From Pseudonocardia endophytica (lineage in GTDB: Bacteria; Actinomycetota; Actinomycetes; Mycobacteriales; Pseudonocardiaceae), in assembly GCF_004339565.1 (NCBI RefSeq), contig NZ_SMFZ01000002.1, positions 2,604,001-2,668,000 on the forward strand: a DNA stretch of 64,000 bases, given 5' to 3'. The translations under genes were made by a program, and so were the position numbers. Below, piece by piece: positions 6,000 to 58,318 of the stretch. The notes beneath the pieces were generated by a model. That model saw only the letters and a list, made by a program, of their open reading frames with translations, was not told where the DNA came from and ran no database searches. Each line of letters starts with the position of its first letter. Position 1 is the stretch's first letter.

Positions 6000-6024
6000 T
6001 CCGCCACGACGGTTCCGCGATCAC

Positions 6025-9865: not shown

Positions 9866-12016
9866 GTGCCCCTCTCGCGAAAGGTCGTGCCCGTGGACGC
9901 CCTCGGCCCCGTCCTGGTCGGCGTGTACCTCATCGGGATCCTGGTCTCGGGCACGGTGATCCGGGCCCGCGCCGGGACCGGCGTCTGGCTACGGCTGAAG
10001 GTCTTCGGTCCCGACGGGTTCGGTCCGGTGTGGATCGCGACGGCGACGGCCTGCTCGATGGCCTGGCCCGTCACGCTGGCCGTATGGCTCGCCAGGGGCC
10101 GCCCCGAGCCGCGGGTGGTGTTCAACGAGAAGGCGGAGGAGCGCAGTCGTCGGGAGACCGCGGCCGCCGCGGCCGCCCAGCCGGCACCCCCGCGACCGGC
10201 GGTGGCGAGCCAGACCGCGCGGGCCGGGTCGGTCCCGCCGGCGAGTCCGATCGCGCGGGCCGGAGCGGCGGTGGTTCCGCCCGTGAACCCGGTCGCCCGG
10301 ATCGCCCCGGCCACGACCACCGTCCCGACCACCAGCTTCGGCTACACCGCTCCGCCCGACGCCGTCGTCGACGGGTGGGGCTGCCCGAACCGCGACTGCG
10401 GGCGCGGCGGCCCCGACGTCCCGCAGCGGTGGCCGCACCCGTGCCCGGGGTGCGGAACCGCGACCGACCCGACGTTCGCCGAGCCGTGGGCGCACGACGC
10501 TCGCGGCCCGTTCCTGCGGGCTGCCGTCGCCGGGTCCGCCCCGGCCGTCCGGGAGGTGTGGGTCGGCGCTCTGGCCGGCTGGGAACACGCCGATGCGTTG
10601 CGCAGAGCCGACGCCGCCGCGGCGGAGCGCGCCCGGCTCCGGGCCCGCGACGTGCTCGGCCAGGTCTCCGAGGCCACCGCCGGGTCGCTGCAGGCCGGGA
10701 TCGTGAACGGATGCCTGGCCCACGGCCTCGCCGACTCCGCCGCGGACGAGCTCCTGTACTGGTCGGCCCGCGTCCGCACGGCAGGCGCCGCCGCCGACTC
10801 CGGACGACGCGCGGACTGCCGCACCCTGATGGACGGTTCGCTCGACTTCCTGGAGAGCGCTGCCGGTGCCGGGCACCGGTTCGCCCCCGAGATCCGTCGC
10901 TCCGCCCTGCTCCTCCGGTCAGCCGTGGGGGATCTTCTGGCCGCCGGCGTCGACGAGCGGGCGGCGCGGGTACTGGACGGCGCGCCGTTCCCGGTCGCGG
11001 TCCCGGCGCCACGGACAGCGCAGGCATCCGCCGCGACCGCCGTCGACCCCGCGCCTGCGGCCGCCCCGCCGTGGCCGGAGAGCAGGCCAGCACGGTCGAC
11101 CGTCGTGCAGCCCACGACCGGTTCCCGGGCGGCGCAGGCCGTGCCGCCGGACTCCGGGTCATTCCCGCCGCCGGTGGCCCGTCCCGTGGCCGCGCGACCG
11201 ACGACCCGGGCCGAAGCGCGGTCCGAGGACCCGGACCGCGTGTTGGCGGCCGTGCTCGGCGGTGTGGTCGTCGGCAGCGCGCCGGTCCTCGACGCCGTGC
11301 GCGCCTGGGTCCCGGACGGCTCGTCGGCGGTCGAGGACCCGGCGCCCGCCGACGGTCCAGCGACGATCGGTGGTGCTGCCCTCGGGCGGGTCCGCCGCGG
11401 TGCGGGCAAGCTCGTCGGCTCGTCCGGACCGGGCACTCCCGACTGGGCCGCGGCCGGCCCGCACCACCGGGCCGCGTGGTGGTCGGAGCGGATGGGTGCG
11501 GTGGTGGCGGCCGCGGTGGCGGCGGCCTCCTCGAGCGGCCCCGTCGCGGAGCACGCCAGCCTCCGGCCCGCCGTGTCGATGGCCGGGCAGGCGTTCGTGC
11601 TCTGCGCGGTCGCCGCCGAGTTCGGTGTGGCCGACCGTGACGAGCTGGTCGCCCTCCTGGCCGACGTCCTGTTCGGACGGACACCGCCCGCCTCCGCGAC
11701 GGAGCCCGATCCGGGGACCCTCGCCGACGTCGCACGCCGGCTCGACGGCACGGGCGCTGCCCGGGTCACGGCGTTCACCGAGATCGCGTGGAGGCTCGGA
11801 CGCTCCCTGCTCACCCTTCGCACGGAGCTGACGGACCGCCCGGAACCGGCCCGGCGCAGCCGGCTCGGGAAGGTGCCGGGTCTCGGTGCGGTCGGCGGTT
11901 TCCTCGACGAGCGGTCGGCCCTGCGGGAGGTGACGGCGTCCGGTGTCGCCTGGCTCGAGAGGCGCTCGGCCCCGCCCGGTCCACCGTTCGGCGACCCGGT
12001 GTCGCGTTCGTCGTAA
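9866..12016 (+). CDS. Membrane protein with zinc ribbon and long helical/low-complexity C-terminal part
   Basis: 716 aa from GTG 9866; a second GTG at 9893 preceded by AAAGG is equally possible and would trim nine residues. Two hydrophobic helices lie near residues 8-28 and 50-75. After an Ala/Pro-rich spacer comes a four-Cys zinc ribbon (CPNRDC then CPGC, near residues 173-200). Next is a helical region, a Pro/Ala-rich low-complexity linker (about residues 370-450) and another helical domain (about 530-700). I do not recognise the protein. It leads a two-gene plus-strand operon with the 397-aa membrane protein, 65 bp downstream, and meets the minus-strand AAA operon head-on. The combination of membrane helices and zinc ribbon is echoed in the 255-aa protein at the far end of that operon. 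Confidence 0.7.
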   Translation: MPLSRKVVPVDALGPVLVGVYLIGILVSGTVIRARAGTGVWLRLKVFGPDGFGPVWIATATACSMAWPVTLAVWLARGRPEPRVVFNEKAEERSRRETAAAAAAQPAPPRPAVASQTARAGSVPPASPIARAGAAVVPPVNPVARIAPATTTVPTTSFGYTAPPDAVVDGWGCPNRDCGRGGPDVPQRWPHPCPGCGTATDPTFAEPWAHDARGPFLRAAVAGSAPAVREVWVGALAGWEHADALRRADAAAAERARLRARDVLGQVSEATAGSLQAGIVNGCLAHGLADSAADELLYWSARVRTAGAAADSGRRADCRTLMDGSLDFLESAAGAGHRFAPEIRRSALLLRSAVGDLLAAGVDERAARVLDGAPFPVAVPAPRTAQASAATAVDPAPAAAPPWPESRPARSTVVQPTTGSRAAQAVPPDSGSFPPPVARPVAARPTTRAEARSEDPDRVLAAVLGGVVVGSAPVLDAVRAWVPDGSSAVEDPAPADGPATIGGAALGRVRRGAGKLVGSSGPGTPDWAAAGPHHRAAWWSERMGAVVAAAVAAASSSGPVAEHASLRPAVSMAGQAFVLCAVAAEFGVADRDELVALLADVLFGRTPPASATEPDPGTLADVARRLDGTGAARVTAFTEIAWRLGRSLLTLRTELTDRPEPARRSRLGKVPGLGAVGGFLDERSALREVTASGVAWLERRSAPPGPPFGDPVSRSS

Positions 12017-25324: not shown

Positions 25325-26683
25325 TCAGACGACCGATACCGGCGACGGGAACAGCGCGTCCGGCACGTCGTCCACCGCCTCCCACAGGTCGTCGACCCGG
25401 CTCGGGAGACCGGTGGCGGCCCGTGCGGTGCCCGCGGCGACGGTACGGAGGATCCCGGCCAGCCCGTCGGCGTCCACGACGTCGGGATCGGTGCGCAGCC
25501 GGATCTCGGTCGTCCCCCGCAGCAGGTTCACGCGGACGTCGATCGGCTGACCGCAGGCGCGCGGGGCCGGCGTCCACGTCACCTCGGCGGGCTCGTCGTG
25601 CCCGGCGGGCGGCTCGTCGTCGAGCTGGACGTAGTTGAACCAGAACGGGAACTGGTGGTTGAACCAGCAGTCGTGGTCGCCCTGCGCGCCGCGTTCGGCC
25701 GCCTGCCGGGCCACCCGGTCGATGTCGTAGCAGGAGTGCCGGTAGGCCTTCGTCACCGTCCAGTGCACCGCCGTGAGGTGGTCACCGAGCGAGCCCGCGC
25801 CGTCGACCTCGACGACGACGGGCATGAGCTGGTTGAACGTGCCGAGCGCCTGCCGGTAGGACGGCGGGAACCGGTTGGAGGACATCACGCCGACCGGGAT
25901 CCGGTGCGCTCCGGTGTGCCGGGCCAGCGCCGCCGTGAGCATCGCCAGCAGCGCCGCGGGCACGGTCGTCCGATGGCGCTGTGCGGCCTCGGCCGCGAGT
26001 GACCCGAGCAGGCCGGACCGCAACGTCGCCTGGATCCGCTCCTTGGTGGTGTCGTACGGCAGTGTCGGCAGCCGCAGCAGGCCCGGCAGCCCGTCCACTC
26101 CCGCCCAGTGCTCGGCCCAGTAGCGCTCGGCCGCCTCCTGCCTGCGGGCGAACGCCGGGTCGTGCTGGGCGGCCCCGACCTCGCGCTGGCTCGGCGTGCC
26201 GGGGTCCGGTGCGTCCGGGTCCTCGACGAGCCTGCCGAACTGGCGCACGACCTCCAGGGAGGTCCACACGTCGCTGATCAGGTGCGAGAACGAGAACACC
26301 AGCAGCATCGGCTCCCCGTCCGTGCTGACCAGCAGCGCCCGCCAGAGCAGGCCCCCGGTCATCGGGATCGCGACGGCGAGGAAGTCCTCGGTCAGCTCGC
26401 CGACCTCGGCGGGGCCGATCCGGCGGTCGATCCGCTCGACCGGGATCTCGACGTCGTCGTGGATCCGCTGCACCGGGGCGCCGGACTCGGTGTGGTACGT
26501 CGTGCGCAGGATCTCGTGCCACGCCACGAGCCGGGACAGCGCGTGCTCGACCCGGTCCGTGGGGATGCCCCGCAGATCCAGCGTCGCCGGCACGTTCGCC
26601 TCTTTCATGCAGCTGGGCGGATACGTCTCGATCTCGCGCCAGCTGTAGAGCTGACCGTGACTCAGGGCCGCTTCCACAGACAC
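25325..26683 (-). CDS. Free-standing condensation-domain acyltransferase
   Basis: 452 aa from GTG 26683, chosen because AGGAGG stands seven bases upstream; an ATG at 26749 lacks such a site. The whole protein is one condensation (C) domain: the start ALSHGQLYSW, the catalytic-site motif reads SHLISDVW with His134 and Asp138, a DFxxx-type middle region, and GTFNQLMPVVVEV at the second core motif. The textbook HHxxxDG is altered: first His is Ser and the final Gly is Val; the catalytic second His stays. Such free C domains form esters or amides between a carrier-bound acyl group and an alcohol or amine (compare PapA-type enzymes). It is read away from PKS1 and shares its upstream region, so it may offload or attach the acyl chain made by PKS1/PKS2. 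Enzyme class is well supported; reaction is inferred. Confidence 0.8.
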   Translation of the reverse strand: MSVEAALSHGQLYSWREIETYPPSCMKEANVPATLDLRGIPTDRVEHALSRLVAWHEILRTTYHTESGAPVQRIHDDVEIPVERIDRRIGPAEVGELTEDFLAVAIPMTGGLLWRALLVSTDGEPMLLVFSFSHLISDVWTSLEVVRQFGRLVEDPDAPDPGTPSQREVGAAQHDPAFARRQEAAERYWAEHWAGVDGLPGLLRLPTLPYDTTKERIQATLRSGLLGSLAAEAAQRHRTTVPAALLAMLTAALARHTGAHRIPVGVMSSNRFPPSYRQALGTFNQLMPVVVEVDGAGSLGDHLTAVHWTVTKAYRHSCYDIDRVARQAAERGAQGDHDCWFNHQFPFWFNYVQLDDEPPAGHDEPAEVTWTPAPRACGQPIDVRVNLLRGTTEIRLRTDPDVVDADGLAGILRTVAAGTARAATGLPSRVDDLWEAVDDVPDALFPSPVSVV

Positions 26684-26859: not shown

Positions 26860-29800
26860 ATGGAGACCGAGAACAGGCTGCGCGACTACCTCAAGCGGGC
26901 CACCGTGGAGCTCACGGAGGCCCGCAGGCGCCTGGCCGAACTGGAGCAGACGGGGACCGAGCCGGTCGCCGTCGTCGGGCTTTCCTGCCGGTACCCGGGT
27001 GGCGCGGACACCCCGGACGAGCTGTGGCGCCTGCTGCGCGACGGCCGGGACGCCGCCGTGGAGGTGCCGGAGTCCCGCTGGAACTTCGAGGACTTCCTGC
27101 CTCCCGAGGGCCCCGCCGCGCAGTCGATCTACAGCAAGCGCGGTGCGCTGCTCGACGACATCGCGGGCTGGGACGCGGGCTTCTTCGGCTGCTCGCCGCA
27201 GGAGGCGCTGCGGATGGACCCGCAGCAGCGCCTGCTGATGGAGCTGGCCTGGGAGGGCATGGAGGACGCCGGGCTCGACCCCGGCGGCCTCGCGGGCAGC
27301 CGCACCGGTGTGCTGGTCGGGCTGATGGACTCGACCCAGTACGGGCGCATGCAGCTGTCGAGCCTCGGTGCCGACGTGGGCGCCGACCCGTACTTCGCGC
27401 AGGGCACCTCGTCCAGCGTGGCGGCCGGGCGGCTCGCCTACCACTACGACCTGCGCGGACCGACGCTCACCGTGGACTCGGCGTGCTCGTCGTCGCTGGT
27501 CGCGGTACACCTCGCGATCGAGGCGCTGCGGCGCGGCGAGTGCGACACCGCGCTGGCCGCCGGCGTCGCGCTGACCATGCACCCGGACATGTTCGTGCAG
27601 GGCTGCGTCACGTCGATGTTCGCGCCGGACGGCCGGTGCAAGACGTTCGACGCGGCCGCCGACGGCTACCTGGTCGGTGAGGGCGCGGGCCTCGTCGTGC
27701 TGACCCGGCTGTCCACCGCGTTGGAGAAGGGCTACCGCGTCCGCGCCGTGCTGCGCGGCTCCGCGGTCAACCAGGACGGCCGCAGCAACGGCCTCACCGC
27801 GCCGAACCGCACGGCCCAGGTCGAGGTGATCCGCCGCGCACTCGACGACGCGGGCGTCGCACCGGGCGAGGTCGACTACATCGAGGCGCACGGCTCCGGC
27901 ACCGGCCTCGGTGACGCCATCGAGCTGTCCGCGCTGCACGACGTGTTCGGCGGGACCGGCCGGGCCGGGCACCCGCTGCGGGTCGGCGCCGTCAAGACGA
28001 ACCTCGGGCACACGATGTCCGCTGCGGGCGTCGCCGGGTTGATCAAGACCGTGCTGGTGCTGGAGAACCGGGTCGTGCCGCCGAACGTGCACCAGAGCGA
28101 GCCGTCGGACGCCGTCCCGTCGGACGGCACGGTCCGCCCGGTCACCGGCGAGTGGTCCCTCCCGGACGACCGTGAGGTGCGGGCCGGGGTCTCCTCGTTC
28201 GGATGGTCCGGGACGAACGCGCACGTCGTCGTCGAGACGGCGCCGGAGGCATCGGGGCAGCATCACGAGTCCGGTGTGGACGCCGGCGACGGGCCCGCGC
28301 AGGTGCTGCCGGTCTCCGCGCGGTCCCCGGAAGCACTGCGCGACCAGCTCACCCGCCTCGGGAACCATCTGGCGGACGGCGGTCCGGCGCTCGTCGACGT
28401 CGCCCGCACGCTGCAGGACGGCCGCGCCCGGCACGCCGAGCGGCGTGCCGTCGTCGCCGCGGACGCCGCCGGTGCGGCCGCCGCGCTCGCCGCCGCGGCG
28501 TCCGGTCCGGAGGGCACCGCCCCGGCCGGAGCCACACGGGTCGCGTTCCTGCTGCCCGGCACCGGCGACCAGTACGCGGGCATGGGCCGCGCGCTCTACG
28601 ACACCGAGCCGGTCTACGCCGCGGCTGTCGACGAGTGCGTCCGGATCGCCCACGAGCGCTGCGGGATCGACCTGCGGCCGTCGCTGTTCTCCGAGCCGGC
28701 CGCAGGGGCCGGTGACCTGGCCGCGCTGCTCGGCCGCGGCCCCGGCGCGGACGGGGCGGGCGAGGACCCGCTGCGGCACGCGGAGACGGCGCACCCGTTC
28801 CTGTTCACCGTGCAGTACGCGACCGCGGAGCTGCTGCGGCACTGGGGGATCGAGCCGGACGTCCTGGTCGGGTACAGCCTCGGCGAGTACGTCGCGGCGT
28901 GCCTGTCCGGTGTGTTCACGCTCGAGGACGCGATGCACCTGGTGGTGGAGCGCGCCCGGCTGATCGAGGCCGCGCCGCCGGGGCTGATGCTCGCGGTCGC
29001 CGCGGACGAGGCCACGGTGCGCGCGCACGTCGGCGCGGACGCGGGGGTGGACCTCGCGGCGTTCAACGGCCCCTACATGACGGTGCTGTCCGGCGAGGCC
29101 GGCGAGGTGCACGCGGCCATGGCGCAGCTGCAGGACGGCGACGTCGCCTGCCAGCTGCTGCGCACCGAGCACGCGTTCCACTCGTCGCTGCTGGAGCCGG
29201 CGCGGGACAAGCTCGGCGAGCTGCTCGCCGAGGTCGGGCGCACGGCGCCGCGGATCCCGATCGTCTCCAACAGCACCGGTCGGCTGCTGCGCGACGACCA
29301 GGCCGTCGGCAGCGACTACTGGACCGCGCACATGGTCAACCCGATCCGGTTCGCCGACAGCGTGCGGACCTGCCTGGACGAGGGTGTGACGGTGTTCCTC
29401 GAGCTCGGCCCCGGGCAGCTGCTCGGCGGCCTGGTCCGGCAGAACCTGACCCCGTCCACCGGCGCGCGTACCCTGGGCACGCTTCCACCACTGTGGACGT
29501 CCGGTGAGCGGCCCGACGTCCGCGGCGAGCTGCTCGGCAGCTGCGCCCGGCTCTGGGAGTCCGGTGTGGACGTCGAGTGGTCACGCACCCGGCACGGCGC
29601 GGGCCGGATCGTCAGCCTGCCCACCTACGCGTTCCAGCGGTCCCGCTACTGGCCGGAGGTCGGCCGGAGGGCCGCCGCGCGACCCGCCGCGCCCGTCGCC
29701 GACGAGCCGAGGGAGGTGGGCTACCGGTCCACCTGGAACCGGGACGTCACCGAGCCGCCCGCCGGGACCGCGCTGCCGGGCACGCTCGTCGTGTTCTCCG

Positions 29801-31623
29801 ACGCGGACGGCATCGGCTCGGCGCTCGCCGCACGGGCCGCCGCGGACGGCACCCGGGTGGTCGAGGTCGTCGCGGGCGACCGGCGGGAGGACGACGGCGC
29901 GCGGATGGTCGTCGACCCGGCCGTGCCGGAGCACATGACCGACGTGGCCACCGCCGTGGCGGGCGCGGCCGGTGACGGGCCGGTGCACCTGGTCCACCTG
30001 TGGAGCCTGCTCGACGAGGGGAGCGGTGACCTGTCCCACCGGCTGCGCTGCGGCTACCACAGTCTGATGCACGCGGTACAGACGTTCGGCGAGCAGCCGG
30101 ACGTCCGGCTGCTCACGGTCAGCCGGGGCGCGGCGACGATCATCGGAGGGGACGCGCCCGCACCGCACCGGGCCGCCGTGCACGGCCTCGGCCGCTCGGT
30201 GCGCCACGAGTACCCCGGCCTGACCTGGTCGGGCGTCGACCTGGACCCGGACGGCACCGACGCGTCGGCCGCCGCCGCGGCACTGGCGGACGAGCTGCGC
30301 CGGGACCGGACGGACCCGCGCGGCGTCCTCGCGGGCGTGCGTCGCGGCCGTCGCTGGACCGAGGACTGGACCGAGCTGCCCGCGCCGGACACCTCGGCGG
30401 ACGAGGTCGCGTCGCCCTGGCGCGCGGACGGGGTCTACCTGATCACCGGCGGCACCCGCGGGCTGGGCATGGGCCTGGCACGGCACCTGGTCCGGGCCGG
30501 CGTGCGGAAGCTGACCCTCGTCGGCCGGACCTCGCTCGCGGACGGCGAGCCGGGAAGCGCCGCGGCGGCGAGCGCCGCCGACGTCGCGGACCTGGAGTCC
30601 GCGGGCGCCGAGGTGCTGACGCTCACCGCGGACACCGGCGACCCGGAGGTGCTGCGCGCCGCGTTGCGCACCTGCCGTGAGCACTTCGGGGCGCTCGACG
30701 GGATCGTGCACGCGGCCGGGGCGCCCGCGAGCGGCGTGCTGGCCCGGCAGACGGCCGCGTCGAGCACCGCGGTGCTGGCGCCCAAGGTGGCCGCGATGGA
30801 GCCGCTGGCGGAGCTCGTCGGCCCGGACAGCCCGCCGGAGCTCCGCCCGGAGCTGCTGGTGCTCTACTCCTCGGCGATCGTCGCGTTCGGCGGCATCGGG
30901 GAGAGCGACTACTGCGCCGCGAACACCGCGCTGGCGGCCTACGCCGACGCGCTGGCCGACACCGCACCGTCGACGACGGTGCTGAGCGTGTCCTGGGCGC
31001 ACTGGCAGCACGACGCCTGGCAGCGCACGGCCGCCGAGCAGGGCAGCGAGCTGGCCACCCGCGCCGACGAGTACCGGGCGCGGTACGGCTTCACCGAGGA
31101 GGGCGGCTGCGCGTTCCTCGACCACCTGATCCGGACCGGCGCGGGCAGCACGGCGGCGTTCCGCCAGCCGCTGGCCGAGATCGCCCGCGAGTGGACGGCC
31201 GTGCTCGACCTCGACTCGCTGGTCGACGCCGCGGCGACCGAGGCCGCCGAGCGGTTCCCGCGCCCGCAGCTGCGCACCGGGTTCGTCCCCGCGCGCACCG
31301 CGACCGAGATCCTGGTCGCCGAGGTGTGGCAGTCCTACCTCGGCATCGACGAGGTCGGCGTGCACGACCCGTTCTTCGACCTCGGCGGCAACTCGCTCGT
31401 CGGCATGGCCGTCGTGCGGGCCGTCGCGAAGCAGCTCGACACGACCATCGCGCCCGCCGTGCTGTTCGAGCACCCCACCGTGGCCGCGTTCGCCGCGGCG
31501 GTGGGCGACGCCGGACCCGACCGGCAGGACGAGACCCGACAGCGGCTCGCGGACAGCTCGGCCAGGGGCCGGCGCCGTCTGCGTGCCCGCACGACCAATC
31601 GGAGAGGGGACCGACGTGGCTGA
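26860..31623 (+). CDS. PKS1: type I PKS module KS-AT-KR-ACP
   Basis: 1587 aa from ATG 26860, preceded by GGGGGAAAGG. Order: N-terminal docking coiled coil (residues 1-30); KS (about 34-460) with Cys209 in DSACSSS, and His in EAHGSGT and KTNLGHT; AT (about 560-870) with Ser673 in GYSLG and HAFH ending at His774, the malonyl-CoA signature; KR (about 950-1440) with GGTRGLG NADPH loop at 1197, Ser1338, Tyr1351 and Asn; ACP (about 1475-1550) with Ser1512 in LGGNSL. No DH or ER. The AT motif [14 protein letters not shown] and the LGGNS carrier motif are typical of cyanobacterial, myxobacterial and PpsE-like PKSs, unlike PKS3/4 below. It adds one malonyl unit and reduces the ketone. The docking helix means it takes its substrate from another protein. 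It overlaps PKS2 by 8 bp. Confidence 0.9.
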   Translation: METENRLRDYLKRATVELTEARRRLAELEQTGTEPVAVVGLSCRYPGGADTPDELWRLLRDGRDAAVEVPESRWNFEDFLPPEGPAAQSIYSKRGALLDDIAGWDAGFFGCSPQEALRMDPQQRLLMELAWEGMEDAGLDPGGLAGSRTGVLVGLMDSTQYGRMQLSSLGADVGADPYFAQGTSSSVAAGRLAYHYDLRGPTLTVDSACSSSLVAVHLAIEALRRGECDTALAAGVALTMHPDMFVQGCVTSMFAPDGRCKTFDAAADGYLVGEGAGLVVLTRLSTALEKGYRVRAVLRGSAVNQDGRSNGLTAPNRTAQVEVIRRALDDAGVAPGEVDYIEAHGSGTGLGDAIELSALHDVFGGTGRAGHPLRVGAVKTNLGHTMSAAGVAGLIKTVLVLENRVVPPNVHQSEPSDAVPSDGTVRPVTGEWSLPDDREVRAGVSSFGWSGTNAHVVVETAPEASGQHHESGVDAGDGPAQVLPVSARSPEALRDQLTRLGNHLADGGPALVDVARTLQDGRARHAERRAVVAADAAGAAAALAAAASGPEGTAPAGATRVAFLLPGTGDQYAGMGRALYDTEPVYAAAVDECVRIAHERCGIDLRPSLFSEPAAGAGDLAALLGRGPGADGAGEDPLRHAETAHPFLFTVQYATAELLRHWGIEPDVLVGYSLGEYVAACLSGVFTLEDAMHLVVERARLIEAAPPGLMLAVAADEATVRAHVGADAGVDLAAFNGPYMTVLSGEAGEVHAAMAQLQDGDVACQLLRTEHAFHSSLLEPARDKLGELLAEVGRTAPRIPIVSNSTGRLLRDDQAVGSDYWTAHMVNPIRFADSVRTCLDEGVTVFLELGPGQLLGGLVRQNLTPSTGARTLGTLPPLWTSGERPDVRGELLGSCARLWESGVDVEWSRTRHGAGRIVSLPTYAFQRSRYWPEVGRRAAARPAAPVADEPREVGYRSTWNRDVTEPPAGTALPGTLVVFSDADGIGSALAARAAADGTRVVEVVAGDRREDDGARMVVDPAVPEHMTDVATAVAGAAGDGPVHLVHLWSLLDEGSGDLSHRLRCGYHSLMHAVQTFGEQPDVRLLTVSRGAATIIGGDAPAPHRAAVHGLGRSVRHEYPGLTWSGVDLDPDGTDASAAAAALADELRRDRTDPRGVLAGVRRGRRWTEDWTELPAPDTSADEVASPWRADGVYLITGGTRGLGMGLARHLVRAGVRKLTLVGRTSLADGEPGSAAAASAADVADLESAGAEVLTLTADTGDPEVLRAALRTCREHFGALDGIVHAAGAPASGVLARQTAASSTAVLAPKVAAMEPLAELVGPDSPPELRPELLVLYSSAIVAFGGIGESDYCAANTALAAYADALADTAPSTTVLSVSWAHWQHDAWQRTAAEQGSELATRADEYRARYGFTEEGGCAFLDHLIRTGAGSTAAFRQPLAEIAREWTAVLDLDSLVDAAATEAAERFPRPQLRTGFVPARTATEILVAEVWQSYLGIDEVGVHDPFFDLGGNSLVGMAVVRAVAKQLDTTIAPAVLFEHPTVAAFAAAVGDAGPDRQDETRQRLADSSARGRRRLRARTTNRRGDRRG

Positions 31624-34600
31624 CCAGCCGATCTTCGACGCGGACGTCGAGGACGACGAGGAGGCCGTCGGCATCGCCGTCGTCGGCATGGCGGGGCGGT
31701 TCCCCGGAGCGCCCGGCGTCACGGACCTGTGGCGGACGATCTGCGCCGGCGAGTCGGGCATCACCCGGTTCACCGAGGAGGAGCTGCGCGCCGCGGGCGT
31801 GCCGCAGGAGCTGATCGACGACCCGGACTACGTGCGGGCGGGCGCCGTCGTCGACGGCGTCGAGGACTTCGACGCCGACTTCTTCGGCATCGGCTCCACC
31901 GAGGCGCAGATCATCGATCCCCAGCACCGCCTGTTCCTGGAGCATTGCTGGGAGGCGCTGGAGGACGCGGGCTGCGACCCGTCGCGCTTCGACGGCACGA
32001 TCGGCGTGTTCGCCGGCTGCGCGATCAGCTCCTACATGACCAACAACCTCGCCGACAGCGAGGCGATGGCCCGGCTCGGGGAGCTGACCGTCGGCCTGGG
32101 CAACGACAAGGACTCGCTGACCACCCGGGCCGCGCACACGCTGGGACTGGGCGGGCCGAGCTACACGATCCAGAGCTACTGCTCGACGTCGCTGGTCGCC
32201 GTGTGCGCGGCCGCCAGCAGCCTCGCGGCGTGCGAGGGCGACCTGATCCTCGCCGGCGGCGTCGCGGTCTCGGTACCGCACCGCGTCGGCTACCTCTACC
32301 AGCCGGGTGGGATCGCCCCGCCGGACGGCGAGTGCCGGGCGTTCGACGCGGCCGGGCTGGGCGCCCCGCTCGGCAACGGTGTCGGCGTCGTGGCGCTGCG
32401 CAGGCTGTCCGACGCGCTGGAGAACGGCGACCGGATCTACGCGGTGATCCGCGGCTGGGCCACGAACAACGACGCGGGCCGCAAGGTCGGGTTCACCGCG
32501 CCCGGCGTGCAGGGACAGGCTGCCGTGATCGAGGAGGCGCTGGGCAGCTCCGGGCTGACCGCGGCCGACATCGACTACGTCGAGGCGCACGGCACCGGCA
32601 CGGCGCTCGGCGACGCGGTCGAGCTGTCGGCACTGCAGCAGGTGTTCGACGGCGAGTCGGTCCGGATCGGGTCCGTCAAGACGAACGTCGGGCACCTGGA
32701 CCGGGCGGCGGGCGTGACGAACCTGATCAAGGCGTCGCTCGCGCTGCACCACGACGAGATCCCGCCGACCCGCAACCTCGGGACGCCGAACGAGCAGCTG
32801 AGCGCCGGTGGAGCGGACATCGAGGTCGTGACCAGCCGCACGCCGTGGCCGGCCAGGCCGGACCGGCTGCGCCGGGCGGGGGTCAGCTCGTTCGGCATCG
32901 GCGGCACCAACGCCCACGTCGTCGTCGAGGAGGCGCCGCGGCCCCCGCACGCGGGCGGGCCGGACCGCGCCGAGCTGATGGTGTGGTCGGCGCGCAGCGC
33001 CGCCGCGGCGGACGCGATGACGTCCCGGCTGGCCGAGCACGTGTCAGGGGACGTGCCCGCCGGGGACGTCGCCTACACGCTGCAGACCGGTCGCCGGGTG
33101 TTCGAGCACCGGCGGATGCTGGTCGTCCCGCCAGGACAGGACGCCGCGGACGTGCTGCGCGCCCGCGGCCCGGTGTCCGGCGAGGACAGCCGCACCGACC
33201 GCGAGGTCGCGTTCCTGGTCGCCGGTACCGGCGACCACCGCCCCGGGATGGCCGCGGACCTGTACCGCGCCGAGCCGGTGTTCGCCGGGGTGCTCGACGA
33301 CTGCCGGGCCGAGCTCGTCGGTCTGGTCGACGGCGGCGAGACGATGCTGCGCGACCCGCTGGGCTGGACGCTGCACGCCGACCGGGAACCCGCACCGGAG
33401 CTCCTCGACGCGGGCGTGTTCACCGTGCACTACGCCATGGGCAGGCTGCTGGGGTCCTGGGGGATCCGGCCGTCGCTGATGGCGGGCGACGGCGTCGGCG
33501 AGTACGTCGCGGCCTGCCTGTCCGGCGTGCTGACGCCCGCGGACGCGCTCGCGCTGCTCGTCCACCGCGCCGAGCTCGTCGGGCGCACGCCCGCCGGGGC
33601 GACGGCGTCGGTCCCGCTGCCCGCGGCCGAGCTGCTCCGGCGGATCGACGCGGCGGGTATCGATGGCGTCGACACGGCGGCCGTGCACGGTCCCGAGCTG
33701 ACCGTGATCGCCGGGCCGCCGGACGCGGTCCGTGCGGTGGGTCTGGCGCTCGGGGCGGACGCGATCCCGTGCCGCCCGGTGCCGGGGGAGCACGCGCTGC
33801 ACTCCCGGATGCTGGAGCCGGTCGCCGACGAGCTGACCGAGCGCGTCGCGCGCACGATCACGCCGCGCCCGCCGGAGATCCCGTACCTGTCCGCCGTGAC
33901 CGGGGAGCCGGTGACCGAGTCCCAGGTGCTCGACCCCGCCTACTGGGCGCAGCAGATGTGCGCGCCGGTGCAGCTGGACACGATGCTCGGCGAGCTGCTC
34001 CGCGACCCGGAGCGCGCGCTGCTGGAGATCGGCCCCGGCCGCACCGTGACCGGGTCCGTGCGCGGCAGGCCGGACTGCCCGCCGTCGCGCTGGCCGACGG
34101 TCGTGTCCGCGCTGCCCGACGAGGACGACCCGCGCGCCGACGTGCTGCTCACCGAGACGCTCGGCAGGCTGTGGCTGGCCGGCGTGCCGGTCGACTGGGA
34201 CGGCTACCAGGCCGGACGGCCGGTCGCGAAGACCGGGCTGCCGACCTACCCGTTCCAGCGCCGTCGCTACTGGATCGAGCCGACCCCCCGGCGCCGCTGT
34301 TCCGAGGCCGCCGCCCGGACCCGGCGGGCCGCGCTGCTCGAACCACTGTGGACCGAGGACGGGGGCACCGGCCCCGGCGGCGGCACGGGCACCGTCCCGC
34401 CGCGCTGCGTGCTGCTGGCCGACCGCTCCGGCGCCGCCGAGGCGCTGGCCGGGACCCTGCGGGACGCCGGCGCCGACGTCACCGTGGCGTCCGACGTCGA
34501 CGGCGGAGCCGACGGCACCGCCGTCGTCGTGGACCTGCGCCTGCTCGACGACCTCGCATCCGGCGAGGAGACCGACGGCACCGGTGCCGACGCCGTCGCG

Positions 34601-37507
34601 GCCGTTGCCGCCCGGCTCGACGCCGTGGCGAACGGTGGGCCGGCACGCGTCGTGCTGGTCACGCGCAACGGCCAGGCCGTGCGCGACGGCGAGCGTCCCT
34701 CGCCCGGACACGCCGCGGCCGCGGCGCTCTGCGTCGTCGCGAACCAGGAGTACGCGGACCTGTCGTGCCGCGCCGTCGACGTCGGTCCGGACGACGACGC
34801 GGCCGCCGCAGTGCACGCCGAGCTGTGCCGGGACACCGACGACGTGCTCGTCGCCCACCGTGAGGGGAAGCGGTTCGTGCCGGAGTACCGGCCGACGACA
34901 CCCGGGACGGACGCGCAGGCTGCCGTCCGTCCCGGTGGCACCTACCTCGTCACCGGCGGGCTCGGCGGCGTCGGCCTCACCGTCGCCCGCCACCTGGCGG
35001 AGGCGGGCGCCGGCACGCTCGTACTGACGAGCCGGACCGGCCTGCCGGACGACCCGGCACACCTGCGCGCGACGGCCGTGCGTGAGCTGCGCACGCTGGG
35101 CGCCAGGGTGCTGACGCCCGCGGTGGACGTGACCGACGAGGACGCGATGCGCTCGATGCTGGCCGGGACGGTCGGCGACGGGAAGCTGGACGGCGTCGTG
35201 CACGCCGCCGCGGCCACCGGACTGGACACGTTCCGCGCCCTGTCCGACACCGATGCGGCCGTGGTGGCCGACCACTTCGCGGCCAAGGTCGGCGGAGCGC
35301 TGGTCCTGCGGCGCCTGCTCGACGAGCGGCCCCTGGAGGCGGCTCCCGGGTTCTGCGCCCTGTTCTCCTCGACGTCGGCACTCCTCGGCGGGATCACGTT
35401 CGGCAGCTACGCCGCGGCCAACGCCGCGCTGTCCGCCGTCGGACACGAGATGGCCGCCCGCCACCGCGCGGGCGCGACGCCCACCCGCTGGGTCACCGGC
35501 TGCTGGGACCCGTGGGGGAGCACGGTGGCGGACCTGGACGGCCCGGACGGCGCGACCACGATGGGGGCCGAGCTGGCCCGCCTGGCGATGACCGAGCCGG
35601 AGGCGCTCGCCGCGTTCGACGGGCTCGTGTCTGGTGTGGACGGATGCCGGGTGGTGACCGTGGCCGGTCTGGACGACCGCATGCCACGCGCCGGAGCCCC
35701 GGCGCAGGCCCCCGCCACGACCGGTGACCGGTTCCCGCGCCCGGACCTCGCGGCGCCGTACGTCGCGCCGTCCACCGGCACCGAACGCACCGTGGCCGAG
35801 CTGTGGTCGGCGGTGCTGGGGGTCGAGCCGGTCGGTGCCGACGACGCGTTCTTCGACCTGGGCGGGAACTCGCTGCTCAGCGTGCAGATGACCGGCCTGG
35901 TCCGGAAGCGCCTCGGCGGGTCCGTGCCGCCGGTGGCGCTGCTCGAGGCACCGACCGCCCGCGCGTTCGCCGCCCTGCTCGACGAGCAGGGCGTGGCGGT
36001 CCCGCAGGAGCGGGCACCGGCCGCCGTACCGGAGCCGCGGCCGGATCGGGAGTCCGGCGGGCCGGGCGCGTCCGGGGTGGACGCCTACCTGCCCAGCTGG
36101 CGCCCGCGGACGGTGCCGCTCGGCGACCTGGACGCGCGGCTGCGGGCCGCGGGGCCGTGGATGCTGCTGGTCGACGACGAGCGCGGGGAGGACCTGGTCG
36201 AGCGGCTGGCCGTGGCCGGTGCCGAGGCCGTCGTCGTGCGGCCGGGGGACACGCTGTCCGCCGAGGCGCACGGCGACTTCACGCTCCCGGTCGGCGAGCC
36301 CGGCCGGTACGCCGAGCTCCTGCGCGCGCAGGTGGTCGCGCCGCGCACCGTCGTGGCCGGGTTCAGCCTGGCCGACGGCGGTAACGAAGCGGCGCACGCC
36401 GACCTGGACGGCCGGTTCGCGGCCGCCCAGGAGCGGGGCCTGCGCTCCGTGCTCGACCTGGTGGACGCGTTCGCGGCCGAGCACCGGCGCGGCGCACCCG
36501 CGGTGGAGCTGGTCGTGCTGACCTCGGGCGCGCTCGGCGTGCTCGGACCGGACGCCGAGCACCCCGAGCACGGAGCGCTCGCCGGCCTCCCGTCCACGCC
36601 CGCCGCCGACGACCCGTTCCTGACCTGCCGGCACGTCGACGTGGACGCGGAGCCGGACGTCGAGCAGACGCTCGCGGCCGTGGTCGGGGGCCACGACGGG
36701 ACCAGCGTGGTCCGGTCCGGCGGTACGTGGCTGCGGCACTACGAGCCGCTGCCCGCCCCACCGGACGGCCCGCTGCCGCTCGTCGGTGCCCGGGACACGG
36801 TGCTGGTCACCGACGGGCTCGGCGGGACCGGGCGGCCGATCGCCCGGCACCTGGCGCGGGCCTACGGGTGCCGGCTGGTGCTGACCGGAGGGGAGACCCT
36901 GCCCCCGCGGGAGCAGTGGGACCGTCTCGACGACGACGACCCGGCGGCCGCGACCGTCGCCGACGTCCGCGAGCTGGAGGACGCGGGCGCGACCGTGCGC
37001 GTACTGGCCGCGGACCCGGCCGACGAGTCGCAGCTCGGCGCCGCCGTCGACGCGGCCGCCGCCGAGTTCGGCGGGATCGACGTCGTGGTGCACGCGGCCG
37101 AGCCGGTACCGGCTGAGCCCGCCGCGTCCTGCCGGGCCGCGGTGCACGACTTCCGGGTGCTCGACTCCGTGCTCACCGACCACGCCGTCGGCCGCAGGGT
37201 CGTCGTGCTCACGCAGCCCGACGACGGCGGCCGCCGCAGCCACGCCGCGACGAACGCCGCGCTCGGCGCCCAGGTCGCCGCCGCGCGGCTGGGCAGGCGG
37301 GGGCACTGGACCACCGTCGAGCCCGCACCGTGGCTGCCCGCCACCGCACGGCAGGAACCGGCCGCGATGGTCGAGCGGGCACTGGCCACCGAGCACGTCG
37401 CGACGGTCGTGGTGGCCACCACCCCGCCCGTGACCCGGCACCCGGCCGCGCGGCCGGTCGAGCGACCGATGACCGAGACCACGTCGTCCGCAGGAGGCGC
37501 GCGATGA
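31616..37507 (+). CDS. PKS2: KS-AT(inactive)-KR-ACP followed by a degenerate KR
   Basis: 1963 aa from GTG 31616 with GGAGAGGGG upstream. KS (about 18-440): Cys189 in QSYCSTS, EAHGTGT, KTNVGHL; its loop [20 protein letters not shown] is PpsE-like. AT (about 530-850): the nucleophile motif GxSxG reads GDGVG, so Ser is Gly626; the distal motif is HALH (His729). The AT cannot load itself. KR (about 890-1320): GGLGGVG at 1114, Tyr1265 in GSYAAAN, intact. ACP (about 1380-1455): Ser1419 in LGGNSL. After the ACP is a full second KR-like unit (about 1480-1930) with structural half and GLGGTG loop, but Tyr replaced by His1876 and the Ser lost. No thioesterase. It needs a trans-acting AT or takes no new extender. 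Follows PKS1 with 8-bp overlap and is coupled to the dehydrogenase by ATGA. Confidence 0.88.
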
Positions 37508-38664
37508 GCGACACCGACCACACCCGCACCGTCCAGCGTTTCGTCCGCAGGGAGGTGCTCGGCCGGGAGCCCGAACTGGACTCGCTGGCCGAGGCCCCGC
37601 TCCCGCTGTACGCGGAGTTCGGGCGGACCGGGCTGGCGAACTGGTGGCTGCCGGAGGAGTTCGGCGGCCTCGGGGTGGACGTCGAGCGGGGCGCCCGCAT
37701 GGTGTCCGCGCTCGCCTACGGCGACGCGGGCGTCGCGTTCACCCTGTTCATCTCCGTGCTGGCCACCACCATGGTGGACCTCTACGGCAGCGACGAGCTG
37801 CGCAAGCAGTGCTTCGACGGGCTGGCCGAGGAGGGCGGCTTCTGCGCCACGCTGGGCAGCGAGCACGCCGCGGGCAGCGAGCTCGCGAACATCGGCACGA
37901 CCGTGCGCCGCGACGGCGAGGAGCTCGTGCTCGACGGCGCCAAGGCGTTCTCCACGAACACCGACTTCGCCCGGTTCGTCGTCGTGATCGCCCGGTCGGC
38001 CGACGACCCGGACGACTACCGGGCCGTCGTCGTGCCCCGGGAGACGCCGGGCCTGACCGTCGAACGTCGCTGGGACGTGATGGGCGTGCGAGCGTCCGCG
38101 ACCTACGAGGTGACGCTGTCCGACTGCCGGGTGCCCGCCGGGAACGCGCTGCGCGGCCACGGGCTGCGCCTGCTGGAGATCGGGCTGAACGTCAGCCGGA
38201 TCTTCATCGCCGCCACCGCCGTCGGGATCGCCCGCCGCGTCCGGGACCTCTGCATGGACTACGCGGCGTCCAAGTCGGTCGGCGGCGCGCCACTGAGCAC
38301 GAACGCCGTCTTCGCGAGCCGGCTCGGTCAGTTCGAGATGCAGATCGAGGTGATGGCCAACCAGTGCGGTGCCGCGGCACGGGACGTCGACGCGATCCGG
38401 GAGCGTCCGGACGCGGCCGAGGAACTGTTGCGGAAGGGAACGCTGAAGTCCGCGATCGTCGCGAAGATGTTCTGCGGGCAGACCGGATGGCAGATCGCGT
38501 CGACGGCCTCCGAGATGTTCGGCGGAATCGGGTACACCGCCGATTCCGCTATCGGAAAGCTGCTGCGCGACGTCCGCTACGTCTCGATCATCGAGGGCGG
38601 CGACGACGTCCTGCGTGACATGGTGTTCCAGCGGAACGTGGTGCCCGTCTCGAAGCGTTCCTGA
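37504..38664 (+). CDS. Acyl-CoA dehydrogenase family flavoprotein
   Basis: 386 aa from ATG 37504; a longer reading inside PKS2 is rejected because this ATG overlaps the PKS2 stop as ATGA after GGAGG. The ACAD fold is complete: N-terminal helical part, middle beta domain ([32 protein letters not shown]), C-terminal helices with the conserved FGGIGYT, and the catalytic Glu in the IIEGG motif near the end, matching IYEGT of the family. Enzymes of this class oxidise the alpha-beta bond of an acyl-thioester with FAD. Coupled translation with PKS2 points to an acyl-ACP substrate made by PKS1/PKS2, so it may install a double bond that these modules cannot make (they have no DH). It is unlike the FkbI-type dehydrogenase at 60451. 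A strong hairpin follows. Confidence 0.85.
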
Positions 38665-39147: not shown

Positions 39148-52854
<13,707 letters not shown>

Positions 52855-52873: not shown

Positions 52874-55800
52874 ATGGCGAACGAGGACCGGCTCCGCGAC
52901 TACCTCCGACGAGCGACCGTGGACCTGGCGAACACCCGGCAGGAGCTGGCCGACGAACAGGCCGGCAGGCACGAGCCGATCGCGGTGGTGGGGATGGGCT
53001 GCCGGTTCCCGGGCGGCACGTCGTCCCCCGCGGATCTGTGGGAGGTGGTCGACGAGGGCAGGGACGTCGTCGGCGAGTTCCCGACCGACCGCGGATGGAA
53101 CCTCTCCGAGCTCTACGACCCGGACCCGTCGAACCCGGGGACGACGTACACGCTGCGCGGCGGCTTCCTGCCCGACGCCGGGGACTTCGACGCCGGGTTC
53201 TTCCAGATCAGCCCGCGCAACGTCGTCGCCATCGACCCGCAGCACCGGCTCGTGCTGGAGACCTGCTGGGAGGCGTTCGAGCAGGCGGGCATCGACCCGG
53301 CCGGCATCCGCGGCAGCCGCACCGGCGTCTACGTCGGGTCGATGTACGACCACTACTCGACCCAGCACCTGGGCGACACGCCCGCCGAGTACGACGGCAC
53401 GCTCATGGTCTACAGCGCGCCCAGCATGATCTCCGGCCGCGTGTCCTACACGTTCGGCTTCACCGGGCCGGCCGTCAGCGTGGACACGGCGTGCTCCTCG
53501 TCGCTGGTGGGCGTGCATCTCGCGACGCAGGCGCTGCGCCGCGGCGAGTGCGGCATGGCGCTGGCGGGCGGCGTCACCGTGATGGCGTCCCCGGACCCGT
53601 TCGTCGCGTTCTCCCGCCAGCGCGGGCTCGCCGAGGACGGCCGCTGCAAGGCGTTCTCCGCCGACGCCGACGGCGCCGTGTGGTCCGAGGGCGCAGGGGT
53701 GCTGCTGCTGGAGCGGCTGTCCGACGCGCAGCGCAACGGCAGGCGGATCCTCGGCCTGGTCCGCGGCACGGCCGTCAACCAGGACGGCGCCAGCAACGGC
53801 ATCACCGCGCCGCACGGCCCCGCCCAGGAGCAGGTGATCGGGCAGGCGCTGGCCGACGCGCGGCTGACCCCGCAGGACGTCGACCTGGTCGAGGCGCACG
53901 GCACCGGGACGCCGCTCGGCGACCCGATCGAGGCCGGCGCGATCCTCGCCACCTACGGGCAGGGACGGGGCGACGCGCGCGCGGTGCGCTTCGGGTCGGT
54001 GAAGTCCAACCTCGGCCACACCCAGGCCGCCGCCGGCGTGGCGGGCATCGTCAAGATGCTGATGGCGATGCGGCACGAGCGGCTGCCGCACTCGATCAAC
54101 GTGAGCGAGCCGTCGGCGCACGTGGACTGGGCGGCCGGTGCGGCCGAGCTCGCCACCGAGAGCGCGGACTGGCCGCGCCACGGCGACGCGCCCCGCCGTG
54201 CGGCCGTCTCGGCGTTCGGCATCGGCGGCACGAACGCGCACGTCGTGCTCGAGGAGCCCGGTGAGCCGGAGCCCGTGCCCGCCGACGAGCACGTCGGGCC
54301 GCTGGCGTGGCCGCTGAGCGCATGCTCGGAGACGGCGCTGGCCGAGCAGGCACGCAGGCTGCGCGACCACGTGGCCACCGACGCGTCGCTGCGCCCGGTC
54401 GACGTGGCGCACACGCTGACCGCGGGCCGCTCCCGGTTCGACCACCGCGGCGTCGTCGTCGGACGGGACCGCGCGGAGCTGCTCGACGCCCTGACCGGCT
54501 GGGTCGACGGACGCCCCGGTGCCGCGGTCACCGGCGTGGCGACCGCCGCCGGACACCGGGTGTTCCTGTTCACCGGCCAGGGCGGCCAGCGCCCGGGCAT
54601 GGGCCGCGAGCTGTACGAGACGTTCCCGGTGTTCGCCGTGGCCCTCGACGAGGTCTGCGACGCGCTCGACACGCACCTGGACCGCCCGCTGCGCGAGATC
54701 ATGTGGGCGGCCGACGGCACGCCGGACGCCGCCGAGCTGAACGAGACCCGCTGGACGCAGCCCGCGCTGTTCGCCTACGGGGTCGCCGTGTTCCGGCTGC
54801 TGGAGTCGTTCGGCGTCGCGCCGGACACGGTCGCGGGCCACTCGGTCGGCGAGCTGGCCGCCGCCCACGTGGCCGGCGTGTGGAGCCTGGCCGACGCCGC
54901 GCGCGTCGTCACCACCCGCGCGCGGCTGATGCAGGAGCTCGACGAGCGCGGCGCGATGGTGGCCGTCGCCGCGTCCCACGACGAGGTCGCCGTCGAGCTC
55001 ACCGACGTCGCGGACCGGGTGTCGGTCGCCGCGGTGAACGGCCCGGAGAGCGTCGTCGTCTCCGGTCACGAGCAGACGGTGCTCGCGGTGGCGGAGCGCT
55101 GGGCGGAGCAGGGCAGGCGCACCCGCCGGCTCGACGTCAGCCACGCGTTCCACTCGCCGCTGATGGAACCGATGCTGGACGCGTTCGCCGACGTGCTGGC
55201 CGGCGTCACGTTCGGCGCCCCGCAGCTGGGCTACGCGACGAACCTCGGCCCGGACCGCACCTGGACCGACCCCGCGTACTGGGTCGACCAGATCCGCAGC
55301 GCCGTGCTGTTCGCCCCGATGGTCGCTCGCCTGGCCGCCGCGGGCGCGACCACCTACCTGGAGGTCGGTCCGCGTCCGGTGCTCGCCGGGATGGTGCAGG
55401 GGTGCCCGACCGGTGGGGCCACCGTGACCACGGTGTGCCGCAAGGACCGCCCGGAGCCGGACGCGCTGCTGGCCTGCCTGTCCGACGTGTTCGTCTCCGG
55501 CGGCGAGGTCCGGTGGAGCACCGACGGCGGCACCGTCGCCGACCTGCCGACCTACGCGTTCGACCGCAAGCGGTACTGGCTGCAGCCGGCGCGCTCGCGC
55601 GTCGACGTGGCGGCGGCCGGTCTGGACCGGGCCGCGCACCCGCTGCTGAAGGCCTGCCTCGACGTCGCGGACCAGGACGGCCTCGTCGCCACCGGGCTGC
55701 TGACCACCGGCGACCAGCAGTGGTTGGCCGACCACCGGATCGGCGGGGCCGTTGTGGTGCCGGGAACGGCCGTGCTCGACGTCGTCGCCGAGGTCTGCAG

Positions 55801-58318
55801 GCGTGCGGGCTACGGCCGGATCGACGAGCTGACGTTCGAGCGGCCGCTCGTGCTGCCGGATGACGCGGCGCTGCTGCTGCAGGTCGCGGTGCGCGACGGC
55901 GCGGTGTCCGTGCACTCCCGCCCGGACGAGAACGAGCCGTGGGCGCGCAACGCGACCGGCACTGTGTCCGCGTCGGAGCCACTGGGCGGTGCCTGCGTGT
56001 GGGCCGACCGCTGGCCGCCGCCGGGCGCCACCGAGGTCGACGTCGAGGACGCCTACGACCGGCTCGAGGAGCTCGGCTACGACTACGGACCCGCGTTCCG
56101 CGGCGTCGTCGGAGCCTGGCGTTCCGGGGAGGACCGCTACGTCGAGGTCGCCGTGCCCGACGGCGTGGACACCGACGGCTGCGGGCTGCACCCCGTCCTG
56201 CTGGACGCGGCGTTCCACCCGTACATCCTGGACGGCGTCGACGAGGCGGGCGACCCGGAGCTGCCGTTCGCGTTCCGCGGCGTCCGGGTGTCCGGCTCGA
56301 ACCCCTCCACGCTGCGGGTTCGCCTGGGTACCGGCCCGTCCGGTCCGACGGTCGAGGCGGCCGACGCCGACGGCAACGCCGTGCTCTCCGTCGAGGAGAT
56401 CGCGACGCGGCCGGTGTCGGTCGCCGCGCTGGCCGCCGCGGCGGGCTCGACGACCGGGCCGGTCGGCAGCCACCGCGTCGACTGGACCCGGTGCACGGCC
56501 ACGGCCGACGCGGGCGCCCGGTGGGCGAGCGTCGGGGCGATCGAGGTGGCGGGCCTGCCCCGGTACTCGACGTTCGACGAGCTGGCCGAGGCGTGTGCTG
56601 TTGGCGACGGGCGTCCCGCGTTCGTCGCGTTCGCGTGCCCGAGCGACGGCGCCCGCGAGACCGACGGCGCCGCGGGCGTCGCGGCCCGCGCGCGGGCGGT
56701 GGCCGGCGAGGCGCTGGCCGCCGCGCAGCGGTGGGTCGGCGACGAGCGGTTCGCCGGCGTGCGGCTGGTGTTCCTCGCCGGCGGCGAGGACCCGGTGTCC
56801 GCAGCGGTGTGGGGCCTGGTCCGGGTGGCCATGGCCGAGCACGCCGGCCGGTTCGCCTTGGTGGACAACGGTTCCGGCGGCGACCCGTGGGCCGCCGTGG
56901 CCGGAGCGGTCGCCGCAGGCGAGTCCCAGTGCCGGGTCCGCGACGGGCAGGTGCTCGTCCCGCGGATCGTGACCCGCACGCCGGAGCCCGCCGCGCAGCA
57001 GCCCGGGCTCGGCGACGGCACGGTGCTCGTCACCGGCGCCACCGGCGGGCTGGGCGCGCTCGTCGCCCGGCGCCTGGTCGAGCGGCACGGAGCCCGCGAT
57101 CTGCTGCTGACCTCGCGCCGCGGTCGCGCGGCCGACGGTGCCGACGAGCTCGTCGCCGGGCTGGAGGAGCTCGGGGCGTCCGTGCGGATCGAGGCCTGCG
57201 ACATGGCCGACCGCGACGCCGTGTCCCGCCTGCTGGCGTCGGTCGGCGCGGACCGCCCGCTCGTCGGCGTCGTGCACTGCGCCGGCGTCCTCGACGACGG
57301 CGTCCTGACCGCCCTCACGCCGCAGCGGCTGGACACCGTCTTCCGCGCCAAGGTCGACGCCGCCGCGGTGCTGCACGAGCTCACCGCGGCGCTGCCGCTG
57401 CGGGCGTTCGTGCTGTTCTCCTCGCTGGCCGGGGTACTCGGCAACGCCGGACAGGCCAACTACGCCGCGGCGAACACGTTCCTGGACGCGCTGGCCGCGC
57501 AGCGGACCCGTCAGGGGCTCGCGGCGCACTCGCTCGCCTGGGGCCCGTGGTCGGTGTCCGGCATGGTCGATGGCCTGGACGACGCGGAGGCGTCGCGGAT
57601 CACGCGGGGCGGCATCACCCCGCTGTCCGCCGAGCAGGGGCTCGAGCTGCTCGACGCCGCGATCGCGGAGGCGCCCGGCGGGGACCCGCTGACGGTGGCG
57701 ACCCGCTGGGACAAGGCGGCGCTGCGCAGCTCCGCGCAGAGCGGCGGGACGGTCCCGGTGATGCTGCGCGACCTCGTCCCCGCCCGTCGGGACGCGGGCG
57801 GCGCCGGCGCGGCGTCGCTCACCGACCGCCTCGCCGGAGCCGCCGAGACGCAGGCCCGGCCGATCGTGCTCGACTTCGTCCGCGCGCAGGTGGCGGGCGT
57901 GCTCGCGCACGGCTCGGCCGAGGACGTCCCGACCGACCAGCCGTTCAGCGAGCTCGGCTTCGACTCGCTGGCCGCCGTCGAGCTGCGCAACCGCCTGACC
58001 GCGGCGACCGGGCTCGAGCTGCCGCCCAGCCTGGTGTTCGACTTCCCGACGGTCTCGGCCGTCGTCGACCACCTGCACGCGTCGCTGGCGCCGTCCCCGC
58101 CGGAGGCCGCGTCCATCGCGGACACGGTGGGGGACATGCTGGAGCGGCTCGAAATCGACCTGCTGGCGGCGGACACCGAGGAGCGGGACCGGGTGGCCGT
58201 CGTGCTCCGCCAGGCACTGAAGGAGCTCACCGCGACCGACGAGCTGGAGACCGTCGAGCTCAGCGTGGCGTCGGCCTCCGACGAGGAGATCTTCTCCATG
58301 CTGGACCGTCAGCTGTAG
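52874..58318 (+). CDS. PKS4: type I PKS module KS-AT-DH-KR-ACP
   Basis: 1814 aa from ATG 52874; an upstream in-frame reading overlaps PKS3 and is rejected. Order: N-terminal docking coiled coil (1-30, [16 protein letters not shown]); KS (36-465) with Cys207 in DTACSSS, EAHGTGT, KSNLGHT; AT (558-880) with GHSVG Ser657 and HAFH (His760), the malonyl-CoA signature; DH (915-1190) with a canonical HxxxGxxxxP at His954 and LLDAAFH; KR (1200-1600) with GATGGLG, LDD (B-type stereochemistry) and Tyr1530; ACP Ser1698 in LGFDSL; C-terminal docking helices (about 1745-1814) ending [13 protein letters not shown]. It should extend the PKS3 product by two carbons and leave a trans alkene. The 19-bp gap from PKS3 means one transcript. 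The docking tail shows that a further module exists, but none follows here; the operon ends in a hairpin at 58339. Confidence 0.92.

Follow-up and report, generated by a model that had tools for sequence, protein, structure and literature searches.

A butyrolactol-like polyketide synthase module of Pseudonocardia endophytica with an eroded, nucleophile-less acyltransferase that may be served by the acyltransferase of another protein

The window analysed here, a stretch of 64,000 nt (positions 2,604,001 to 2,668,000 of contig NZ_SMFZ01000002.1) from the 7.57 Mb, two-contig genome of Pseudonocardia endophytica, carries a modular polyketide synthase (PKS) cluster, whose positions are counted below from the first nucleotide of the window. 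Two PKS genes with overlapping frames lie on its forward strand. PKS1 (26860-31623) encodes, according to its domains, a KS-AT-KR-ACP protein with a docking domain (PF08990) at the N-terminus and an acyltransferase (AT) that reads GYSLG at the nucleophile elbow (Ser673), as the initial annotation had stated. PKS2 (31616-37507) is an open frame of 1963 aa with the Pfam domain order KS-AT(inactive)-KR-ACP followed by a degenerate KR, and its GC3 stays at 0.93-0.97 along the whole gene, with no sign of a hidden frameshift. Its stop overlaps the forward-strand gene of an acyl-CoA dehydrogenase recognized by domain matches (37504-38664), which shares 24-30% identity with its best matches in relatives, these being FkbH-linked dehydrogenases. 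Also on the forward strand, and assigned from domains and motifs, are PKS3 (39172-52854), with a KSQ loading module and two extension modules that have GHSQG ATs, and PKS4 (52874-58318), with one extension module and a GHSVG AT. Gln replaces Cys in the first KS of PKS3 (39658-39660, VDAGQSSSL), which marks a KSQ loading module.

All four genes for a hydroxymalonyl-ACP extender unit were found in the cluster, within 58629-62770 on the reverse strand. A stand-alone thioesterase (58629-59387, PF00975), a gene that also adjoins FkbH in relatives, is followed by an FkbH-type glyceryl-ACP protein (59384-60454, TIGR01686 with 271 bits) and by an acyl-CoA dehydrogenase (60451-61614), a discrete ACP (61617-61874) and a 3-hydroxyacyl-CoA dehydrogenase (61904-62770), the last three assigned to the hydroxymalonyl-ACP set from domain matches and from gene order in relatives. 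These are the genes named for hydroxymalonyl-ACP formation in the butyrolactol A report (PMC5355916). In the window they stand on the strand opposite to the PKS genes, after PKS4, and relatives have them after PKS2 or after the last PKS protein; judged by gene order, the cluster is evidently rearranged in the placing of this set.

The AT of PKS2 (33197-34066, forward strand) has lost its nucleophile. At 33479-33502, ATG GCG GGC GAC GGC GTC GGC GAG encodes MAGDGVGE, and the GYSxG elbow is replaced by GDGVG (33485-33499, forward strand), with Asp625 (GAC) and Gly626 (GGC, 33491-33493) at the positions where PKS1 has TAC AGC; counted from the upstream GTG at 31583 as an alternative start, Gly626 is residue 637. 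The exchange of the catalytic Ser for Gly had been noticed from the sequence alone and is confirmed by alignment with family members, which finds no substitute nucleophile Ser elsewhere in the PKS2 AT and rules out a displaced one. GYS[LVI]GE at the elbow, against GDGVGE in PKS2, and HAFHS at the His motif, against HALHS, are found in 65/65 of the best-matching related ATs (53 loci from the first searches plus 12 more), a set of best-scoring matches from which eroded orthologues could be missing. Descent from ATs is evident from a PF00698 match of 99-103 bits, and His729 is kept together with Arg651, which we take to be the carboxylate-binding Arg. A change of GEQ to GDH on the oxyanion side was not counted as a defect, as relatives with an intact elbow have GEH. 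A structural model of the domain, built from a shallow alignment of the six window ATs, has an AT fold with a mean pLDDT of 77.7 and matches solved ATs with TM scores (query) of 0.69-0.75 among the first 50, ZmaA-AT being one of the closest solved relatives; the PKS2 AT is predicted to keep the AT fold despite the lost nucleophile.

The initial annotation had taken the rest of the AT to be kept and had regarded a single AGC-to-GGC change as enough to explain a lone defect in an otherwise sound module. We aligned module 1 of PKS2 with 18 orthologous modules sharing the unusual KS site QS[YA]CSTSLV, one of them (L056) incomplete, and called a column invariant when all relatives with a letter there had one residue at an occupancy of >=85%. 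Orthology of module 1, paired with PKS1, is indicated by the common KS site and by a mean KS identity of 72% to the 18 modules. In the PKS2 AT, 19/69 invariant columns are changed, compared with 4/174 in the KS (Fisher p = 1.9e-8); the altered AT positions include the one preceding the nucleophile (Asp625 for Tyr), the QP/HP Pro and the HAFH Phe. The corresponding counts are 0/24 for the KR, 0/11 for the structural KR half, 0/13 for the post-AT linker, 1/12 for the KS-AT linker and 4/16 for the ACP. When the relatives were left out one at a time, with the window sequence kept out of the reference, their ATs showed 0-5 changes in 69-74 columns, with the exception of L050 (13/82), whose KS is likewise high (11/185). 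Terminal branch lengths (AT/KS 0.788/0.269 in the window) do not by themselves single out the PKS2 AT, because the relative L041 has the same AT/KS ratio (0.350/0.122), and the invariant-column count with leave-one-out was therefore relied on instead. By this measure the AT is eroded as a whole domain and the KS and KR are not, so that one base change accounts for the Ser codon only and the description of the remaining AT as kept does not hold. The AT of PKS1 has 10/95 invariant columns changed, with its catalytic residues standing, compared with 0-5 in 13 relatives and 15/100 in L049.

The residues for which the module had been called sound are indeed present, all on the forward strand. Domain matches, residues and invariant columns identify the KS (31667-32965; QSYCSTSLV), which keeps Cys189, His325 and His360, and the KR (34919-35494), which keeps Ser1252 and Tyr1265; the ACP (35777-35992; LGGNSL), identified by domain match and residue, has Ser1419. 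Soundness does not extend to the AT, nor to what follows the ACP, a dead KR relic (36023-37504, forward strand) that the initial annotation did not mention. Residues 1470-1963 (~490 aa) best match the KR halves of the AT-less modules L073-L076 with 272-302 bits; the structural and catalytic KR halves remain, the catalytic Tyr is replaced by His1876, and the KS with part of the linker before the relic and the ACP after it are lost. On bit scores and alignment, the C-terminus is the relic of an AT-less last module of the type KS-KR-ACP, and the gene is shortened, with module 1 fused to the remains of that last module. L045 and L046 likewise have a one-module PKS2, there with an intact AT, and the PKS2 frame of L056 is broken after the AT.

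Matches to the AT were found at 1e-30 in 207/297 sampled genomes of the same family, at 1e-60 in one of 62 genomes of the genus, namely the present one, at 1e-75 in 5/394 genomes of a class sample that includes the present genome, and at 1e-85 in 28/341 genomes of another family; a separate scan of genome contigs with the AT gave three distant mycobacterial places at 25-28% identity. The best matches sit in a conserved pair of PKS1 (KS-AT-KR-ACP) and PKS2 (one to three modules), beside which relatives carry genes for a hydroxyacyl-CoA dehydrogenase, an ACP, an acyl-CoA dehydrogenase, FkbH and a thioesterase. We read 33 such loci, first 21 (L041-L056, L060 and L080-L083) and then 12 (L111-L122) selected because the frame holding their AT was short. 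At 15 loci the module preceding PKS2 retains its AT intact, at 14 that AT is eroded or lost, and at the remaining 4 the module was not seen. Gly stands at the Ser place in 12/12 eroded ATs whose elbow aligns (elbows read GHGTG, GSGVG, GRGTG, GHGVG, GTGVG, GAGAG, GAGVG and GQGSG), and the His-bearing small subdomain is deleted in the four that were aligned in full; for L054, a pattern match had given GALHGE as the elbow, which alignment replaced by GSGVG. The eroded ATs before PKS2 may descend from few events, and the window case is independent by position, because it concerns a different slot, module 1 of PKS2 and not the module before it. Modules of the form KS-KR(-ACP) without an AT occur at no fewer than 8 of the 33 loci, most of which were read as stretches of 20 kb, and the ACP of the one in L051 lies beyond the stretch read.

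At 14/33 loci (L054, L055 and L111-L122) the place of PKS2 is taken by a homologous KS-AT protein, and no KR or ACP was found in its frame; examples are 7754-10732 of L054 (reverse strand) and 6578-10375 of L055 (forward strand). All 14 have Ser for the catalytic Cys of the KS and have lost its first catalytic His, and all 14 keep an intact AT (GYSVGE, HAFHS). The preceding module, seen at 11 of these loci (not at L112, L115 and L119), has KS, KR and ACP with the AT eroded in ten cases and missing in one. Extender genes directly follow 12/14 of the dead-KS/AT proteins, and none were found in the fetched DNA of L115 and L119. If active, such an AT must act across proteins, because its own protein has no ACP and the neighbouring module has an ACP and no usable AT. 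The dead-KS/AT proteins are possibly dedicated hydroxymalonyl trans-ATs; by comparison of sequences, AT action across proteins very probably occurs in this butyrolactol-like family, and we regard these loci as the strongest comparative evidence for trans-loading in it. They share with the window a homologous AT, an adjacent module whose AT has Gly instead of Ser and, in 12/14 cases, the same extender genes. The losses are opposite, however: the dead-KS/AT homologue of PKS2 keeps the AT and has lost a functional KS, the KR and the ACP, whereas PKS2 of the window keeps KS, KR and ACP and has lost the AT.

The closest characterized chemistry is that of butyrolactol A, in which, according to the published report (PMC5355916), labelling traced C-1 to C-8, four two-carbon units, to hydroxymalonyl-ACP, the PKS proteins before the extender genes have 3,462, 3,135 and 1,169 aa, and no O-methyltransferase genes were found close to the cluster. 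The 1,169-aa protein is too short for KS-AT-KR-ACP and its size matches the AT-less modules of the family. The same source gives S. cattleya as the origin of homologues of three of the PKS proteins (71-76%), and the corresponding S. cattleya proteins have GHSQG and GHGVG ATs, then GYSVG and GYSLG ATs, then no AT. Labelling and sequence concern different strains, and we infer which module adds which unit. Chain extension by AT-null modules is very probable in this butyrolactol-like family, the butyrolactol chemistry being one line of evidence for it. Like the butyrolactol A PKS and the pSCAT cluster of S. cattleya, the window has a PKS pair beside hydroxymalonyl-ACP genes and a module without a usable AT. 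In S. cattleya, however, the eroded AT precedes the PKS2 pair and has its small subdomain deleted, whereas in the window it belongs to module 1 of PKS2 and is almost full length; PKS2 of the window, unlike that of S. cattleya, is one module plus a relic.

Active counterparts and other AT-null modules are known from other lines. ZmaA-AT of the zwittermicin pathway of Bacillus cereus (4qbu), a solved hydroxymalonyl-ACP AT, takes its unit from a carrier protein and has a GYSFG elbow (PMC4207774); it is active and keeps the GYSxG of the family, in contrast to the PKS2 AT, which has lost the elbow. The last module of irumamycin, module 12, has an AT whose catalytic Ser is replaced by Gly and whose motifs are poorly conserved, and the ACP of this module is proposed to be served by the neighbouring AT11 (PMC11672594); that assembly line is of the malonyl/methylmalonyl type with a TE, and its module 12 is not a hydroxymalonyl module. 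In the literature searched for inactive ATs, AT-less modules, Ser-to-Gly changes and split KS-AT proteins, with subscription journals thinly covered, irumamycin module 12 was the sole direct parallel found, and we do not claim the AT-null modules and dead-KS/AT proteins of the family as unpublished. Trans-AT PKSs and an AT-null DEBS share with PKS2 a module without AT activity of its own: an AT-inactivated DEBS module 6 was rescued in trans by a FabD-type transacylase, according to a review (PMC6164871). In those systems the AT is discrete. In the window cluster, a search for discrete AT genes, an option raised by the initial annotation, came out negative: among the 30 AT matches listed for the genome, the six in the window belong to PKS1-PKS4, and no AT match lies in the 20 kb to the right of the window, which leaves no discrete loader within the cluster. 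Judged by frame length, two ATs of the genome are stand-alone proteins, namely FabD and an AT of another cluster ~91 kb away. The latter is a 332-aa protein (GHSVGE) beside another PKS, encoded at 9742-10740 of the stretch L071, to the left of PKS2.

Our preferred reading, to which we give a probability of roughly 0.55, is that PKS2 extends the chain and that its ACP is loaded by the AT of another protein, that of PKS1 being the first candidate. From PKS4 the chain would be handed to PKS1, which has the docking domain, and then to PKS2, which would serve as a condensing and reducing module with its own dead AT as a scaffold at most. The set encoded at 58629-62770 (FkbH, acyl-CoA dehydrogenase and hydroxyacyl-CoA dehydrogenase) would charge the discrete ACP with hydroxymalonyl, and the unit would be transferred to the PKS2 ACP most likely by the GYSLG AT of PKS1 just upstream; that AT would then charge the ACPs of both proteins, and PKS2 would contribute the final polyol unit ahead of release. 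The PKS1 AT is the only one in the cluster with a GYSxG elbow, and the PKS1 and PKS2 ACPs, which share 46% identity, compared with 19-30% to the ACPs of the window's four other modules, appear to be of one class. We infer the extension by PKS2 itself, the identity of the loading AT and the unit taken. Trans-loading, which had been listed among several options, is thus the best supported of them, with AT-null modules recurring in the family and 14 loci placing an AT on a dead-KS protein without an ACP. Three observations count against loading by PKS1: the dead-KS/AT proteins are homologues of PKS2, so that the polarity is reversed with PKS1 as the donor; 4/16 invariant columns of the PKS2 ACP are changed; and the PKS1 AT is itself mildly divergent. 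The degenerate C-terminal KR counts against extension as such, as the gene could be on its way out.

The strongest competitor starts from this last point and holds that PKS2 is a relic or a pass-through, the later modules having been lost and the chain leaving from PKS1 or merely being handed on. The dead AT, the dead C-terminal KR, the loss of the KS and ACP of the last module and the partly changed ACP (4/16 columns) would fit. The frame, on the other hand, runs uninterrupted through 1963 aa and shows normal codon use, and the KS (4/174) and KR (0/24) are little changed and keep their catalytic residues, which would be unexpected had the module been idle as long as its AT; we consider a relic or pass-through unlikely, if a serious contender. 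Loading of the PKS2 ACP by a stand-alone AT, FabD or the 332-aa protein ~91 kb to the left, would give a malonyl rather than a hydroxymalonyl unit. Both genes are in the genome, and the rescue of DEBS module 6 (PMC6164871) provides a precedent, but the discrete AT adjoins a different PKS, and the S. cattleya cluster, which has two AT-null modules, showed no stand-alone AT over the 105 kb covered; we hold this route to be improbable. Still less probable is that PKS1 acts twice and makes the second extension without PKS2: iteration of module 11 is discussed for irumamycin, with its Gly-for-Ser AT in module 12 (PMC11672594), but stuttering by PKS1 would leave the conserved KS and KR of PKS2 unexplained. 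A sequencing or assembly error at 33491, where one base suffices to turn Ser into Gly, is untenable, because 19/69 family-invariant AT columns differ (the adjacent codon and 17 further positions scattered over ~270 residues among them) while the KS and KR columns, the reading frame and codon use hold.

Beyond the loading of PKS2 by another AT, the family lends itself to a broader reading, for which we see about even odds: the hydroxymalonyl AT would have become a function shared across proteins, with a dedicated AT in many clusters carried on a dead KS next to an AT-null module, amounting to a transition from cis-AT to trans-AT operation without recruitment of a FabD-like enzyme. As part of this, modules would have lost their AT at varying positions of the assembly line and to varying extents, from PKS2 of the window (nucleophile lost, fold kept) through S. 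cattleya and others (small subdomain gone) to the last modules without an AT. The origin of AT-less modules from cis-AT modules has so far mostly been inferred from end states, and here full, nucleophile-less, truncated and absent ATs are found in one family together with the reciprocal dead-KS/AT proteins. AT sharing between modules could be tested in this family with two proteins, and product predictions made from domains may overlook such modules or assign them wrongly.

A minor observation concerns two stand-alone condensation-domain proteins in a PKS cluster, encoded at 25325-26683 of the window and at 4862-6742 of the stretch L070. Genes for an adenylating enzyme and, identified by eye, a PLP decarboxylase-like protein lie to the right. 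Together these genes suggest that the product contains an amine or amino-acid portion.
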